Positions 1-7,042 are shown, numbered from the stretch's first letter. The stretch: 44,363 nt of DNA from Bdellovibrionales bacterium RIFOXYC1_FULL_37_79 (GCA_001770015.1 MEQB01000055.1:1-44363), one strand, 5' to 3'. Program-made: numbers and translations. Notes: generated by a model not told the origin, from the letters alone.

Positions 1-39
1 TGTCAGACTATCATCTGCAATAAGAATCTTTGCGTTCAT
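1..39 (-). CDS. Response regulator receiver protein, N-terminus only
   Basis: Only the first 13 codons are in the window, running off the left edge. They read M-N-A-K-I-L-I-A-D-D-S-L-T, the beta-1 strand and acidic Asp pair that open CheY-like receiver domains, where the Asp pair helps bind Mg2+ for phosphotransfer. The ATG at 37-39 follows a Shine-Dalgarno GAGG eight bases upstream. The gene lies 82 bases downstream of the PP2C-like phosphatase on the same strand, so it could be the last gene of the FHA operon or start its own transcript. The output domain, if any, is outside the window. Family assignment from 13 residues is reasonable but not certain. Confidence 0.7.
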   Translation of the reverse strand, partial: MNAKILIADDSLT

Positions 40-121
40 AATCAAAACCTCTAAGAATATCTTCTCTTAAATAAGTTAGGTTAGCAAGAATTTTGCATAT
101 TTTTAAAGCTAGAACAATTTA

Positions 122-862
122 TTAAAATCTTAACATCACAAAGGTTTGGTTATCCAGATTCCCTTTGTTATTTGCGAGATTAAAAATCAATGCTCCCTTC
201 TCATGATCATCGTTTTTCATTTCAATAATATATTTAAGCTCATTAATGTCCAATTTACCAAATACTCCATCCGTTACAAAAATAATTATATCCTCTGGTT
301 CAACTTTTAATTCTCTTATTTGTAAATATAAATCATCAAACAAACCAAGACCGTTAGATGGACACAGATGGGAAATAGTATTTTGCCTGCCTTCAAAATG
401 AAATTGCAGGACATCAGGGTAAGTTATCGGGGCAATATGTCCACTCCGATATAAATAAGAGGCACAATTGCCGGCACAAGCAAATGTCATAATATTTTCA
501 GACATGGCAGCCCCAATTATTGAAGCTCCTCCCTTTTGAGATAAGTTCTTTTTTTCGTTATTACGTTTCATTAATGTTTGATGAGCATATTGAATGGAAT
601 TAATTAAAGCATTCCCTTCAATTAAATATTTCGGACTGAAAAAAAAAGGCAAGGTTAAATCAGGATCACTGTCTAATTTAGTATAAAATTTGGCAACTTC
701 GTCGCTAAGTAATGAAACAGCACTATCACCAACCCCTGCTCCTCCAAAACCATCAAAAATCAAAAATAAATTGTTAACCACATCCAAATGGTAGTGATCC
801 TCATTGATTTCTAAATAAGGTCCTTGATGAGTTTTGGCTGTATATTCTTTGAGCGCTAACAT
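122..862 (-). CDS. PP2C-type serine/threonine protein phosphatase
   Basis: A 246-residue single-domain protein with PP2C motifs in order: Glu21-Asp22 near the N-terminus, Asp37-Gly38-Phe-Gly-Gly, an AGN turn near 130, Asp198-Gly199 after a hydrophobic strand, and Asp237-Asn238 at the C-terminus. These are the usual metal-binding acidic residues, so it should be catalytically competent. The family is Mn2+/Mg2+-dependent and removes phosphate from Ser/Thr. There is no signal peptide or membrane segment, so it is cytoplasmic. It starts 2 bases after the stop of the two-FHA-domain gene. FHA domains bind phosphothreonine, so the likely substrates are partners of the FHA proteins; that is inference from context. 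No cognate kinase is in the window. Confidence 0.85.
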   Translation of the reverse strand: MLALKEYTAKTHQGPYLEINEDHYHLDVVNNLFLIFDGFGGAGVGDSAVSLLSDEVAKFYTKLDSDPDLTLPFFFSPKYLIEGNALINSIQYAHQTLMKRNNEKKNLSQKGGASIIGAAMSENIMTFACAGNCASYLYRSGHIAPITYPDVLQFHFEGRQNTISHLCPSNGLGLFDDLYLQIRELKVEPEDIIIFVTDGVFGKLDINELKYIIEMKNDDHEKGALIFNLANNKGNLDNQTFVMLRF

Positions 863-864
863 AT

Positions 865-3138
865 TTACTCCATATAATCTTGCAATTTTTTGGTAGCCTT
901 TCGATAATATTCGCTATCTGAAGGTGCAATTTGTTGCACCTCTTGAAATTTATCTTTTGCCTCGGTAAACAAACTCATGGATTCAAGAATCAATGCTTCT
1001 CGATATACTTTTTTAGTTCTAAAGGAAAGCACATCCCTTATCTCAGCCATTTCTTTTAATGCTTCCATATTGTCAGGGACCAGACTCAAAAGCAGCAAAT
1101 ACGTTTCATATGCGCCTTTAAGATCCTGCCCTTCTTTTAAAGAACGGGCCTTTCCCATCAACGGTTCAATAATATCCCTTAGGTTTTTTCTGGAATCGGT
1201 CAACATGGAATGGGCCTCTTTTACCAGATCATCATCCATATCCGTAATGCTTAAAAATTTTTCCAAAGCAACAATTGCCTTATGCCATTCTTTTTTTAAA
1301 TAATGCTGTTTACCAGGTTTAAGCAATCTTATATTTCTGGCCCTTTCCGCTTTCGCTTGCTCCTCTTCAAGTAGTTTTTTCTCTTCTTCTTTCTTCCAGG
1401 CTTCCAGAGTGGCTTTCATGTATGTTACATCATAATTTTCCGGTTCAAGCTTCATAATTTCACTAAAAAGAGTTTCCGCCACCTCAACATGTCTCTCCTT
1501 GACTGCCTCTTGTGCCTGCTTGACTAATTCTTTAACTTTTTGTTTTCTTATCCGGCGTTCAATTTCTTCTTGCTTCTTTTTCTCTTCCTCTTCAAGTTTC
1601 TTTAATCCACCCTGGGCCCATGAATAAATTTGAGCAGAATTTTTCCATGGTGAAACAATCTGGTGGAGTTTGTCCAACTCTTGCAAAGACTCTTTGTATT
1701 TTCCATCATCCAATAAAGTTTTCGATAACTCATACAAAGCCTCCGCCGATTCTTGTTGTTCTGGTGTAAGCTTGATCTCTTTTTTGCCTTTGAGTAAATT
1801 TTTTTTATCCTGTTCAAGTAAATAATTCTGTTTTTTTGTATCCTTGCTCTTGTTTTTGGATGTTGTTTGGCTTTCCTGATCCCCCAGCAATATCCAAAGT
1901 CCAAGCAAAATAATCAATCCAATCAATATTTTCTTTCTTTTTACCGGATCCTTCAAAGCATCCCGAGTGAACAAGGATTTATTGCTTTTGGCTAACAAAG
2001 CTTCTGCCTCTTGGGCTGCAACGCCGGTCCCTGCATCCCCGGCAAAATCGGTTGAAACTTCTACAATTTCTTCGACTTCCACCACCTGGTTATCTTCAAC
2101 CGGCATAAGTCGGTCTTTCTGGTCCTGCAAAAATGTTGAAATAATTTCTACCGTAAAAGTCGTACTTCCAACCAAAAATTCATCATTATTGGCAAGCTCG
2201 GACTGATTAATTCTTATGCCATTTAAAATGGTACCATTGGCTGATTTTAAATCCTCCAGAATATAGGTGTTTTTATTTTTTTTTATAACTGCATGTTCAG
2301 ATGAAACTTCGACATCATTTAAAACTATCTGACATTTTTCAGCACTCCGACCAATTTTAACTTCATTTTGATCTAAAATAAATTTTTCATAGGGGGCATT
2401 TTCACCAAAAATTTTCAAAATAAATTTTGAGAATGATTTTGCAACCTCGGTTTTTTCCGCTAGGTTCTCGTTAACAAACGACGAAGGATCTTCATGAAAA
2501 GAATTTTCTGAAAGTCCAAAATCATTTGAATTGTTTAAATTTTCAAAGTTCTCATTTTTAAAAACTTCATTTTCTATTTTTGGTTCTTCGACCGGAAATT
2601 CATTATTTTCATTATTTGGAGAAGATGCCGAGGGGACATCCGTGTTTTTTTGAAAATCACTTATTGTTTCAAGGTCAGCAGTGTAACCCTTCATTTCAGT
2701 ATTTTTCGCCAGATCCTGGTCCTTTTTAGAAACTGCTATTGAGGTAGTTTTTTTCTTTGCAGTTTGGTTTATCCCCTCTTTAGGCTGGGCCAAAACCCCC
2801 GTCGCTCTGTGTTTTTTTTCATCCGTTTCATCCATCAATACATTCAAAACATAATGGCCAAGATTAATCATGTCTCCTTGAACCAGCTCATGCTTTAATA
2901 TACTCTTGCCATTAATAAAAACATCACTAGTATCACTCATCTTTTCGATAGTCCAAACTCCCTGGTCACATGTAAGTTTGGCATGTTCTCTTGAAACTTT
3001 TCTATCATCTAAAACGATTTCACATTCAGACGATCGTCCGATCAAAAACGACCATTTTGCTTGTTTTCCACCGGTTTTCTCACCAGAGAACAAGCGTTCC
3101 TCGATAAAATTTCCGTTTTTAGTTACAGATATTTTCAT
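865..3138 (-). CDS. Membrane protein with two FHA domains, one transmembrane helix and a C-terminal TPR-like region
   Basis: 757 residues. FHA domain 1 covers about 5-102 (GRS at 34-36, SREH at 49-52). FHA domain 2 covers about 236-333 (GRS at 263-265, SSEH at 279-282, SANGT at 299-303). Between them is a low-complexity Asn/Glu/Ser-rich linker. A hydrophobic helix at about 403-418 follows a basic patch (VKRKK), which puts the FHA domains in the cytoplasm. The C-terminal 330 residues are charged, helical and coiled-coil to TPR-like and would be periplasmic. FHA domains bind phosphothreonine peptides. Domain 1 lacks the usual loop Asn (its loop reads SDTSDVFING), so its binding may be altered. 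The start overlaps the upstream FHA gene by 20 bases, which implies translational coupling. Architecture is clear; function is not. Confidence 0.85.
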   Translation of the reverse strand: MKISVTKNGNFIEERLFSGEKTGGKQAKWSFLIGRSSECEIVLDDRKVSREHAKLTCDQGVWTIEKMSDTSDVFINGKSILKHELVQGDMINLGHYVLNVLMDETDEKKHRATGVLAQPKEGINQTAKKKTTSIAVSKKDQDLAKNTEMKGYTADLETISDFQKNTDVPSASSPNNENNEFPVEEPKIENEVFKNENFENLNNSNDFGLSENSFHEDPSSFVNENLAEKTEVAKSFSKFILKIFGENAPYEKFILDQNEVKIGRSAEKCQIVLNDVEVSSEHAVIKKNKNTYILEDLKSANGTILNGIRINQSELANNDEFLVGSTTFTVEIISTFLQDQKDRLMPVEDNQVVEVEEIVEVSTDFAGDAGTGVAAQEAEALLAKSNKSLFTRDALKDPVKRKKILIGLIILLGLWILLGDQESQTTSKNKSKDTKKQNYLLEQDKKNLLKGKKEIKLTPEQQESAEALYELSKTLLDDGKYKESLQELDKLHQIVSPWKNSAQIYSWAQGGLKKLEEEEKKKQEEIERRIRKQKVKELVKQAQEAVKERHVEVAETLFSEIMKLEPENYDVTYMKATLEAWKKEEEKKLLEEEQAKAERARNIRLLKPGKQHYLKKEWHKAIVALEKFLSITDMDDDLVKEAHSMLTDSRKNLRDIIEPLMGKARSLKEGQDLKGAYETYLLLLSLVPDNMEALKEMAEIRDVLSFRTKKVYREALILESMSLFTEAKDKFQEVQQIAPSDSEYYRKATKKLQDYME

Positions 3139-4129
3139 CTTCTTTTAATCCCAATTCATCATTTAATACTTTTATATTTTTTTGTGCCGCTACATATCTC
3201 TCATCATTCGGATTTTGATCAATCAAGCGCATAATGGAACAATACGTTTTTACAGCTTCCACCAGTCTTAATGATTCACGATCCCGTGCAGCCTTGGCAA
3301 ACAACTGATCAATTTCTTCATCCAGTGCTTGTTGAGTCTTTTTTTTATAAAAATCGGCCCGATTATGATTTGGTGCCCGTACCAAAGCTTGCTCAAACTC
3401 ATGTAAAGCACGGTAGAAATTTTTTTCGCGCAATTCCCTTAGTCCGCGATGAATGTAAACATAGACTTCTTGTTCTAACTCCTCCTCCCGGTTAGCCTCA
3501 CTTTTTTTTAGGTTTTGTACCAGTATCTCATCTTCCTCTAACGTTCCTTCCCCGGTCTTTTTCTTATCCTTGTTTTGAGAGTTATCACTTGAAGTGAACA
3601 GGGACGCAAGCGTTATAAGGATTAATATTCCGTATATTAAAAACTTTTTATTATTTTTAGCAACTACTTTGATTATCGCAGATCTTTCACTTCTTGACTT
3701 TTCGGCTTGGATTTCATCAGATTCTCTTTTTTGTAGATTACTATTCTTGTCTAAAACCGTAAGCAGACTATACTTAAAAATCGTTTTTCCCACAATAACG
3801 GTATCATGATCTGATAATCTATGCTGAGTGACTTTCAAATCATTAACCATCGTTCCATTTTGTGATTTTAAATCAGTCAGAACATAACTATCCTTGACCT
3901 TGGCCAGTTCAAAATGTTCTCTAGAAGCCTTGATATCATTTATCTGGATATCAATATTTTTTCCTCTTCCTGCAAGAATCCGAGGACCTATTAGAATATA
4001 GCTTGTTCCTTTATTTTCACCAGTCATACATAAAAACCGATAATATTGCCCAGCTTCCGACGGCACTTTTAAATCTGTAAATGTTAAAACATTATCACTC
4101 ATTCCAATAAAGTCCTCACGATTGCTCAT
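3119..4129 (-). CDS. FHA domain, transmembrane helix and TPR-like protein
   Basis: 336 residues with the same plan as its downstream neighbour, but only one FHA domain, at about 43-122 (GRG at 54-56, SREH at 69-72, SQNGT at 89-93). A transmembrane helix at about 162-179 follows a basic stretch, so FHA is predicted cytoplasmic and the C-terminus periplasmic. Residues 220-315 form helical repeats resembling one or two TPR units (a YRALHEFEQAL-type helix, then APNHNRA). It overlaps the upstream gene by 14 bases and the downstream one by 20. Shared architecture suggests duplication. A cytoplasmic FHA, one membrane pass and a periplasmic scaffold is also the topology of SctD/YscD ring proteins of type III secretion; that comparison is architectural only. 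Confidence 0.82.
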   Translation of the reverse strand: MSNREDFIGMSDNVLTFTDLKVPSEAGQYYRFLCMTGENKGTSYILIGPRILAGRGKNIDIQINDIKASREHFELAKVKDSYVLTDLKSQNGTMVNDLKVTQHRLSDHDTVIVGKTIFKYSLLTVLDKNSNLQKRESDEIQAEKSRSERSAIIKVVAKNNKKFLIYGILILITLASLFTSSDNSQNKDKKKTGEGTLEEDEILVQNLKKSEANREEELEQEVYVYIHRGLRELREKNFYRALHEFEQALVRAPNHNRADFYKKKTQQALDEEIDQLFAKAARDRESLRLVEAVKTYCSIMRLIDQNPNDERYVAAQKNIKVLNDELGLKEDENICN

Positions 4130-5672
4130 TTATAAAAGTAATATAAAACGCCTTAGCAAAATTATCTTTTCCCATAAGGGTGTTAACATAAATTGAATAA
4201 GGATTGCCTTGAACATCATACGATCCATGTTGATTGACTCCACCATTGTTGGCAGATTCATCACATAACTCCATTAACATTGCCGCAAATCCCTTCTCCC
4301 TGGCGGTGTCTAGCAGATTCATATCCATCGCACTGGACTCCCTTATCCCAGTCAAATCTTCGGCAAGTAAATTAATCTTTTTGATATTTTTTTCCGAATT
4401 TAAAACAATTGTAGGAACGCCTGATCCTTCAGAAAAATTAATCAATTTTTCGACATACAAAGTATCTTCTTCAATCTCATCATACATTTTATCAGAATCG
4501 TCCTTGGATAATTCCCTTATTCTAGTTAATAACACATTAATACTATCTCTCAAGGGATTCATTTCTTGCATGAGAAACTCGCTTTCGATCAATCTTCTCT
4601 TGCCTCTTAAAAACTCATCAATTTGTCGTTTCATCTCATCCATGGGTTTAATAGTTAAAAAAAGTATTATTCCATAAAAAAAGATGGCCACCAGTATGGA
4701 GGTGGATAATGATTCAAAATACGCCCTTGAACTTTTGGACGCTTCTAACGCAAGTGAAGTCGGGGAAAATCGAATGGCAATTGCCGCAATCGTTTCATAA
4801 TCCCCGGTTTTCATATTATACGTTCTAATTTTCTTAGCAATTCCAATTTGCCCATTTCCAATCGGGCCCGTAAAAAGTTCATTGATTTTTTTCCTATCCC
4901 TTGCCCAATTTTTTGCTTTTACAGAAAATGGATCATCTATGAATTCATTCATCTTCCCTATTGGTCTAAAAATTCTTCCTTCTAAATCAAATAATTCATA
5001 GGACACTACACCTGGCTCATGCTCAAGAAAGTTAGTATCAATCTGATCCAGAAATCCTTTACTTAAAGCACCCGCATTTATTCTGGCTATTTCATCTGCA
5101 TAATGGCTACCTCGAAGTGATGTCTCATCAATCAATATTCTTTTACTATCACTCAGCACTGGAAAAATGGTAAGAGTTATTGAAACAAAAACACACATGG
5201 CCATAATGATGGCTAACAAAACCTTCCATTCATACTCTCTGTTAATATTATAAAACAAAGGCATGATTTTAAGTTTAAAATAGTAAATAATCTTCAGTGG
5301 CAGATTAGTCGGGACAGGTTCAGTTTGTTTTAAAAAGTCATCATCGTTTTGAGTGATCTTCTTATGAATAATTATTTTCTTTTCTTTAACCAGAACAACT
5401 TGAATGATGGAATCAGGAAGACTTATTTTATCACCATTTTTTAAAGTTGCGTTTTTTACAAACACACCGTTTAAAAACGTACCATTGGCACTTTCCAGAT
5501 CTTTTAAATAAGCCGCATCATTGGTTATCGTTATACTTAAATGTCGTTTAGATATTCCTTCAACCGGAAAATACACATCACATTCTGAACCCCGCCCAAG
5601 AACATTATCCCCATCATTTAAGATAAATTCCCTGCCTCGTAATTTTCCACCAATAACGACTAGCTTAAACAT
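4116..5672 (-). CDS. FHA-sensor-HAMP-PAS membrane protein
   Basis: 518 residues. An N-terminal FHA domain covers about 1-95, with GRG at 26-28, SKRH at 41-44, SANGT at 61-65 and LNG at 67-69. Transmembrane helix 1 is at about 151-173, followed by an extracytoplasmic domain of about 145 residues. Transmembrane helix 2 is at about 322-341. A HAMP-like charged helical stretch spans about 342-395, and a PAS-like domain spans about 405 to the end. There is no kinase, cyclase or methyl-accepting output domain. The plan suggests that an external or redox signal sensed through the periplasmic and PAS domains changes how the FHA domain docks phosphorylated partners. It overlaps the DUF192 gene by 13 bases and the next FHA gene by 14. 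Confidence 0.8.
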   Translation of the reverse strand: MFKLVVIGGKLRGREFILNDGDNVLGRGSECDVYFPVEGISKRHLSITITNDAAYLKDLESANGTFLNGVFVKNATLKNGDKISLPDSIIQVVLVKEKKIIIHKKITQNDDDFLKQTEPVPTNLPLKIIYYFKLKIMPLFYNINREYEWKVLLAIIMAMCVFVSITLTIFPVLSDSKRILIDETSLRGSHYADEIARINAGALSKGFLDQIDTNFLEHEPGVVSYELFDLEGRIFRPIGKMNEFIDDPFSVKAKNWARDRKKINELFTGPIGNGQIGIAKKIRTYNMKTGDYETIAAIAIRFSPTSLALEASKSSRAYFESLSTSILVAIFFYGIILFLTIKPMDEMKRQIDEFLRGKRRLIESEFLMQEMNPLRDSINVLLTRIRELSKDDSDKMYDEIEEDTLYVEKLINFSEGSGVPTIVLNSEKNIKKINLLAEDLTGIRESSAMDMNLLDTAREKGFAAMLMELCDESANNGGVNQHGSYDVQGNPYSIYVNTLMGKDNFAKAFYITFINEQS

Positions 5673-6013
5673 ATTCCCTCTTCAAATATTAAATAATCAC
5701 CCTCTTTTATTTCCAGGGGAATTTGCCCTGACTTTAACTCTAAAACCTGGGTAGCCTGCAAATAAATCCCGGTTATCCTCCACGGTACAATTCCTCTTAT
5801 AATTTTTTTTATTTGATAATTATCATTTAAAAAAATCACATCCAGGTTAAACTTCATAAAACAAGTATGTATCGAATTACAATGTTTGATTAAAAGCCCA
5901 TCATAACCAATCATCTCATCAAAAAACATCAATCCTCTTAGCCTAGCAAAAAATGATTCAGCAATCTTTACTGATTTGGCTATAGATAAATTTTTGTATT
6001 TAATCTGAAGCAT
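5660..6013 (-). CDS. DUF192 family protein
   Basis: 117 residues matching the DUF192 pattern: RLRGLM at about 24-29, a HTCFM motif (HT-x-FM) near the middle, a hydrophobic DVIFLND strand, a PWR triplet, and a closing ATQVLEL followed by Gly. The family is a small beta-barrel of unknown biochemical role, often exported. This copy shows no signal peptide and is probably cytoplasmic. Its ATG shares one base with the TAA of the tadC-like gene (TAATG), so the two are translationally coupled. The link to Tad-type genes is contextual and gives no firm function. Confidence 0.8.
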   Translation of the reverse strand: MLQIKYKNLSIAKSVKIAESFFARLRGLMFFDEMIGYDGLLIKHCNSIHTCFMKFNLDVIFLNDNYQIKKIIRGIVPWRITGIYLQATQVLELKSGQIPLEIKEGDYLIFEEGICLS

Positions 6014-6912
6014 TATTTCCTCGCTAAAATAAATTCCAAAGCCAGTGGAGCAGCAACAATAATAAACACTGCCGGAACAATAAAAATCATCATCGGAAAA
6101 AGTATCTTGGTAGCTGCTTTTGCCGCTTTTTTTTCAACCTCGTTTGATCTTTTTTGCCTAATCTCAACTGCCAACGCTTTTAAAATGGGACCAATACTGG
6201 CCCCCACTGAATCTGCCGCAATCAAAGTTGCACAAAACGAAGTTATATTTATAAGGCCTACTCTCCACGATAAATTTCTAAGTGCCTCGGCCCGACTGGC
6301 ACCAACTGTAATCTCTTTCATTAGCAGTTCAAACTCTTCAGAAAGTGAACTTCTTTTGGCTTTCTCAACCACCTTGGCCATGGCAGCAATAAAATCAAGT
6401 CCTGCCTCCACACAAAGCGCCAGCATATCTATAGCAAAAGGCATGTTGGTTATAATATCTTCCTGACGCTGTTTAATTTTTCCGCTTAACCAAAGATCCG
6501 GATAAACGAATCCAAAAAAAGCCAGGGGAATCATGGAGGAAAGCGGCCAATCTGCATCTGCCAATAGCTTGATGCCAATAAATAGGATAGGAAAACCAAT
6601 AATCAAAAATAATTTAAACGAATAAAATTCCTCGGGAGAAATAATCACCGTCAACCCAGACATCGCTAATTTTCTTTTATATTTATTCCGTATTTTTCCT
6701 CTCTGTTTCATATTAGAGACAATAGGCACAACATATCTTCTAAAAAAAGGTCTGGAATATCTTAAGATAACTCCTTGCTGAGCAATTTTATCTTTCCCTA
6801 CGTTATCATCCAGTTTCTCTGAAGCTTTATACTGGCCTTCATCAATAAAAACAGCACTCGTTATAATAAAAACCGAGATACCGACCAAAATAAGTGATAT
6901 ATAAAGCAACAT
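6013..6912 (-). CDS. TadC-like type II secretion system F family protein
   Basis: 299 residues from the ATG at 6910-6912. The T2SSF domain lies in the second half: a FAIDMLALCVEAGL helix, then a long amphipathic helical bundle, and a final hydrophobic helix starting KILFPMMIFIVPAVF. Further membrane helices are at the N-terminus and near 75-120. T2SSF proteins are inner-membrane platforms for Tad/Flp pilus or type II secretion assembly and work with an ATPase (TadA) and usually a partner TadB. The chosen ATG has AGGGTG six bases upstream; a TTG 18 bases earlier (6928-6930) would add six residues with a poorer site. It heads the FHA/PP2C operon. No TadA or TadB gene lies beside it, which is unusual. 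Confidence 0.85.
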   Translation of the reverse strand: MLLYISLILVGISVFIITSAVFIDEGQYKASEKLDDNVGKDKIAQQGVILRYSRPFFRRYVVPIVSNMKQRGKIRNKYKRKLAMSGLTVIISPEEFYSFKLFLIIGFPILFIGIKLLADADWPLSSMIPLAFFGFVYPDLWLSGKIKQRQEDIITNMPFAIDMLALCVEAGLDFIAAMAKVVEKAKRSSLSEEFELLMKEITVGASRAEALRNLSWRVGLINITSFCATLIAADSVGASIGPILKALAVEIRQKRSNEVEKKAAKAATKILFPMMIFIVPAVFIIVAAPLALEFILARK

Positions 6913-7042
6913 GATCCACACCCTGATCAAATTAATTTTTGCTCAATACCTATAGGGTACCAGATATTTAATTTTCAGTTACTTAGGGGAAAGATCATCC
7001 AATTTAAACATACAGTTGAACAAATCAGTATGATTTCTAGGA

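Follow-up and report, generated by a model that had tools for sequence, protein, structure and literature searches.

The window, which is the whole stretch of DNA analysed here (44,363 nucleotides), is the complete contig C55 of Bdellovibrionales bacterium RIFOXYC1_FULL_37_79; positions left of 1 are unreadable. The following features were assigned at its left end, listed from the first gene of the operon onwards.

6013..6912, minus strand: tadC, first gene, T2SSF inner-membrane platform protein (Pfam, 65 bits)
5660..6013, minus strand: small DUF192 (COG1430) protein (Pfam, 62 bits)
4116..5672, minus strand: FHA1 (Pfam FHA, 62 bits)
3119..4129, minus strand: FHA2 (Pfam FHA, 54 bits)
865..3138, minus strand: FHA3, two FHA stretches (122 bits) and TPR (Pfam)
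122..862, minus strand: PP2C-type phosphatase with the motifs NED, DGxGG, DG and DN and with PP2C structure matches
1..40, minus strand: response regulator, first codons, cut by the contig end, probably outside the operon

According to the ORF coordinates, tadC and the DUF192 gene overlap by 1 base, DUF192 and FHA1 by 13, FHA1 and FHA2 by 14 and FHA2 and FHA3 by 20 bases; FHA3 and the PP2C gene are separated by 2 bases. The original prediction had described six genes overlapping by 1-20 bases or lying 2 bases apart and regarded them as one transcription unit. The arrangement was confirmed by the ORFs, all on the minus strand, and this layout supports the single unit. The assignment to a type II secretion platform protein, DUF192 and three FHA proteins with four FHA domains was also confirmed by Pfam, all of these domains scoring well over the cut-off, and the phosphatase proposed for the unit was recovered with a family profile that matches solved PP2C structures. 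In contrast, the response regulator, supposed to end the operon, is excluded as a member by a gap of 81 bases and because it adjoins the operon in no family other than that of the window (f1). A relative of it in locus L058 (14073-15359, 428 aa) consists of a REC domain, a long linker of low complexity and a C-terminal helix, which looks conserved.

For tadC an alternative TTG start exists at 6930. Translation more likely begins with the ATG at 6912, because alignments with homologues set in at residue 7 of the longer frame. Promoter and terminator scans of the window stayed at chance level, and the pattern searched for FliA-like sites had no match there. A CCTATA/TCTATA-like element at about 6931-6960 (minus strand), just upstream of the tadC start, recurs in several loci of the window's family and is perhaps the operon promoter.

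The split Tad locus

Of 144 Bdellovibrionota genomes, 143 have a tadC homologue. Besides the window, 41 loci were read (42 in total). The order tadC-DUF192-FHA-FHA-FHA on the same strand was present in 36 of these 42 loci, from about 20 families; gaps between operon genes were at most 20 bases in 95% and the genes overlapped in 71%. This recurrence of order and strand shows that the arrangement is not a product of chance. Absence of the gene order from related genomes had been named as an argument against the unit; its conservation across the phylum favours it instead.

The other Tad genes of the genome are located on contig C47. Pfam identified there, all on the same strand, genes for a prepilin peptidase, TadE-like proteins, CpaB, a secretin, a MinD-CpaF fusion and TadB. 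Together with TadC in the window, TadB completes the pair of T2SSF platform proteins. An ORF for a Flp-like pilin was read from the sequence ahead of tadV, and in L076 a Flp1_like match was just under the cut-off. No obvious candidate for TadG, RcpB or TadD was noticed in C47.

Members of the window's family have the operon and the remaining Tad genes either on different contigs or, if a single contig includes both, hundreds of kb from each other. In three other families (L076, L074 and L072) the series tadC-DUF192-FHA-FHA-FHA2x-[PP2C]-pilins-TadE-CpaB-secretin-TadZ/CpaF could be read directly as one locus, the PP2C of L074 being an HMM call with a weak motif set. In L076 and L074, tadB is next after TadZ/CpaF. 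In 13 of 59 genomes, tadC shares a strand with the gene for the CpaF fusion at a distance of up to about 20 kb (coordinates compared by eye). Thus, the envelope machine suspected behind the operon is a Tad machine, encoded by a split, Kil-like Tad pilus locus to which the six genes contribute the tadC half and C47 the other. The search for Tad genes and a kinase beyond the operon, which had been proposed, succeeded for the Tad half and located three Hanks kinases elsewhere, but none in the operon.

Coupling to a Tad-like protein had been considered the unusual part. In fact such coupling is the norm throughout the phylum, and Kil/Tad pili rich in FHA proteins, with a contact-triggered phospho-cascade, were already proposed in 2021 by Seef et al., who compared Kil, an FHA-rich Tad system, with the contact cascade of the T6SS (PMC8460266). 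As here, Kil of Myxococcus xanthus comprises a Tad platform, motor, secretin and pilins as well as several FHA proteins; the trait of the Kil-like subclass, several FHA proteins with Tad genes, is present here with three of them throughout the phylum. Two differences were observed. The Kil motor KilF carries an N-terminal FHA domain, whereas the motor here has a MinD/CbiA/TadZ-like N-terminus. Furthermore, a mention of PP2C was not found in the Kil paper (PMC8460266), whereas the operon described here has one.

DUF192 adjoins tadC in nearly all of the 42 loci. It also follows tadC directly in the Tad cluster of a Moraxella bovis plasmid (NZ_CP087831), where, unlike here, no FHA or PP2C gene is annotated. 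The proximity of DUF192 to Tad genes thus does not depend on FHA or PP2C genes; no description of it was found in the literature searched. A signal peptide is not evident by eye, and no PDB relative was found by sequence.

Some further features of the Tad core were noticed. The fusion of a TadZ/MinD-like protein and the CpaF motor (L007:11152-13317 on contig C47, 721 aa) aligns along nearly its full length in most genomes of the phylum. The core ends with an RHS/DUF6531 protein (about 520-590 aa), directly after tadB in C47, L076 and L074, which is possibly a surface or delivered part. Its members are the following.

L007:8523-10151
L076, 17288-end
L074:362-2134
L072:15903-17603, judged by sequence likeness only

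RHS genes are also near the Moraxella Tad cluster. In L007, a FliA-like site, TAAGAGTT-N11-CCGATATG, was recognized by eye ahead of the Flp ORF that precedes tadV. FliA control of the TAD operon has reportedly been published, and this site is in line with it.

FHA domains and the operon phosphatase

FHA1 consists of an FHA domain, a membrane helix, a middle domain, a second membrane helix and a PAS-like C-terminus; its helices were judged from sequence and the PAS match is weak, under the Pfam cut-off. In FHA2 an FHA domain and a membrane helix precede a TPR-like C-terminus (weak Pfam match). Two FHA domains, a membrane helix and TPR repeats make up FHA3. The FHA proteins also match the Pfam model of the YscD cytoplasmic domain. 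With the long FHA protein as query against the genome contigs, a single near relative was found (L058). AlphaFold on two-sequence alignments reached pLDDT values of 33 for FHA1 and 35 for the PP2C.

The alignments revealed that the phosphothreonine-binding residues Gly-Arg, Ser and Asn-Gly are conserved nearly everywhere across the phylum in FHA1 and in the second FHA domain of FHA3. They persist even where the PP2C looks dead. The first FHA domain of FHA3 is without the Asn in nearly all lineages, and the Asn of FHA2 is often altered in the Bdellovibrio clade. This pattern beside the state of the PP2C was not found described in the literature searched.

The PP2C of the window is under Pfam's own cut-offs (E 2e-3). 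It matched the solved structures of tPphA (E 1.5e-5) and PppA (6jkv, 1e-3), and the profile of its family matched solved PP2C structures over near full length with E 3e-13. The window protein has all four motif aspartates (NED, DGxGG, DG, DN), as do all 10 members of family f1 compared and members of families f13 and f20.

A PP2C homologue after FHA3 was detected by HMM in 34 of 42 loci; six of these 34 had been dropped by the simple gene picker, their extended frame overlapping FHA3. The gene is missing from loci of four families in which there is room for it. Four aspartates were counted in 12 of the 34 homologues and none in 14; the classes with one to three are soft, the alignment of motif 11 being uncertain in partial cases. 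Thirteen of the 14 homologues without aspartates group together in the TadC tree as a single clade (100/100 support), which includes the Bdellovibrio-type genomes and in which the gene itself is retained. Loss is the best reading of this change, since PP2C enzymes canonically carry these aspartates. Directly, no PP2C structure was matched by the profile of the inactive group. Its homology to PP2C is based on intermediate sequences, on position and on profile-profile comparison with controls: hhalign gave a probability of 98% and a score of 91, compared with 11-16 for column-shuffled and 13-21 for unrelated profiles. The pattern of four versus no aspartates was not found in the literature searched. 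Hence, the operon phosphatase is apparently intact in the window's family, and its counterpart in Bdellovibrio seems to be without catalytic residues.

The machine does not depend on catalysis by the operon PP2C, as this protein looks inactive or is missing in many lineages. A second, canonical PP2C is encoded elsewhere in 14 of 14 genomes checked. Therefore, the operon PP2C need not be the main eraser.

Correspondence to Bd0470-Bd0475 of Bdellovibrio bacteriovorus

The operon Bd0470-Bd0475 (PMC12034629) of Bdellovibrio bacteriovorus shares the gene order and has similar gene sizes. It is also apart from the Tad core, bd0109-bd0119 (PMC5430801), and thus split as in the window's genome. The FHA3 copy of locus L080 has 674 aa, the published length of Bd0474 (PMC12034629), and agrees with Bd0474 at 12 of 12 published interface positions, compared with 3 for the best offset expected by chance. 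The last gene of L080 has 228 aa like the published Bd0475. By position, FHA3 and the PP2C of the window are the orthologues of Bd0474 and Bd0475, respectively. The Tad identity and the orthology to Bd0470-Bd0475 are near certain. Two differences remain: Bdellovibrio is without TadV (PMC5430801), which the window's genome has, and the Bd0475-type protein has none of the PP2C aspartates, whereas the last operon gene of the window has all four. Bd0475, hypothetical in the only paper found to name it, likely has a PP2C fold.

Mutants of tadC (Bd0470) in Bdellovibrio bacteriovorus neither attach nor kill, and Bd0474 mutants keep attachment and lose killing (PMC6561027). With flp1, flp2 and flp4 mutants predation was lost and attachment kept (PMC5430801). 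The operon is an ordinary, essential part of a known predation machine.

Candidate phosphorylation switch and alternative readings

A Hanks kinase is not encoded within the operon; the three Pkinase genes of the genome are on contigs C28, C1 and C11. At least one Hanks kinase was found in 141 of 144 genomes of the phylum, and exactly one in each of G039, G050, G067 and G126, which belong to the family of the window. The C1-type kinase would be the best candidate for the writer, because the sole kinase of G050, which is membrane-anchored, is orthologous and syntenic to it and the Bdellovibrio kinase compared is related.

With a probability of about 60% we propose that a Hanks kinase, FHA1 and FHA3 as readers and the PP2C as reset gate the Tad machine on prey contact. 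TadC would be the platform of the Tad pilus. The membrane-anchored FHA proteins would reach into the cytoplasm with their FHA domains, at the base of the pilus, and have their TPR or sensor-like parts outside. A kinase encoded elsewhere might phosphorylate a base component or a partner; FHA1 and FHA3 may bind this component and assemble or arm the machine upon prey contact, and the operon PP2C would reset it. Such a switch, like the Ser/Thr circuit of the original prediction, would be plausible, although the operon encodes no kinase and its PP2C is missing or inactive-looking in many lineages, among them the Bdellovibrio clade, where the gene is kept without the four aspartates. In the Bdellovibrio clade the PP2C homologue may act as a binding or scaffold protein, because its motif residues are lost. 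Extended to the whole group, predatory Tad pili of Bdellovibrionota might be gated by threonine phosphorylation, with an active ancestral PP2C, preserved in the window's family, and Bd0475 as a pseudophosphatase still binding the FHA complex; we regard this as possible rather than probable.

The FHA and PP2C-like proteins could also be structural, a YscD-like ring and scaffold round the Tad base with no phosphorylation switch. In that case the FHA folds would be modules for assembly, and the phosphatase fold would be either a relic or a module for binding. The matches to the YscD model, the missing Asn in the first FHA domain of FHA3 and the loss of aspartates or of the whole PP2C from an otherwise kept operon are in accordance with this. 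So are the binding of Bd0474 to the TPR protein Bd0075 via parts outside the cytoplasm and the AlphaFold-Multimer pairing of Bd0473 with Bd0475 (PMC12034629). The binding residues kept nearly everywhere in FHA1 and the second domain of FHA3, and the four aspartates of family f1 and two other families, argue against a merely structural role, which we rather doubt.

Both remaining explanations are very improbable. The T6SS pathway with PpkA, PppA and Fha likewise combines FHA readers and a PP2C-type phosphatase beside an envelope machine, so the likeness seen in the original prediction holds as a formal analogy, and PppA (6jkv) is among the structure matches of the operon PP2C. As a part or regulatory relic of such a system the operon is largely refuted: in contrast to the T6SS, the cluster has no sheath gene and no PpkA-type kinase, and Tad genes are found instead, with TadC in the locus and the whole Tad set beside it in other families. 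The remark that no T6SS gene is visible applies genome-wide to TssC/VipB, for which no match was obtained (E. coli control positive; about 4% of the genome unassembled). A general Ser/Thr signalling operon merely following tadC could be suspected from the distant Tad genes in the window's family, but this is refuted by the synteny: 36 of 42 loci share the gene order, and in other families the operon joins the Tad core without a break.

For the phosphorylation switch, the operon names candidate readers and an eraser for the contact trigger of a predatory killing pilus, and these belong to the Tad locus phylum-wide. The state of the phosphatase is the point worth following, as lineages with an apparently active and with an inactive-looking enzyme provide a natural experiment. 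In L068, L069 and L091 (families f24 and f17) the PP2C homologue has two of four aspartates. A Hanks kinase was not detectable in the genome G105 (L069), and only a weak one was found in G125 (L068), perhaps a joint decay of writer and eraser. L069 and L091 carry an extra small FHA gene.
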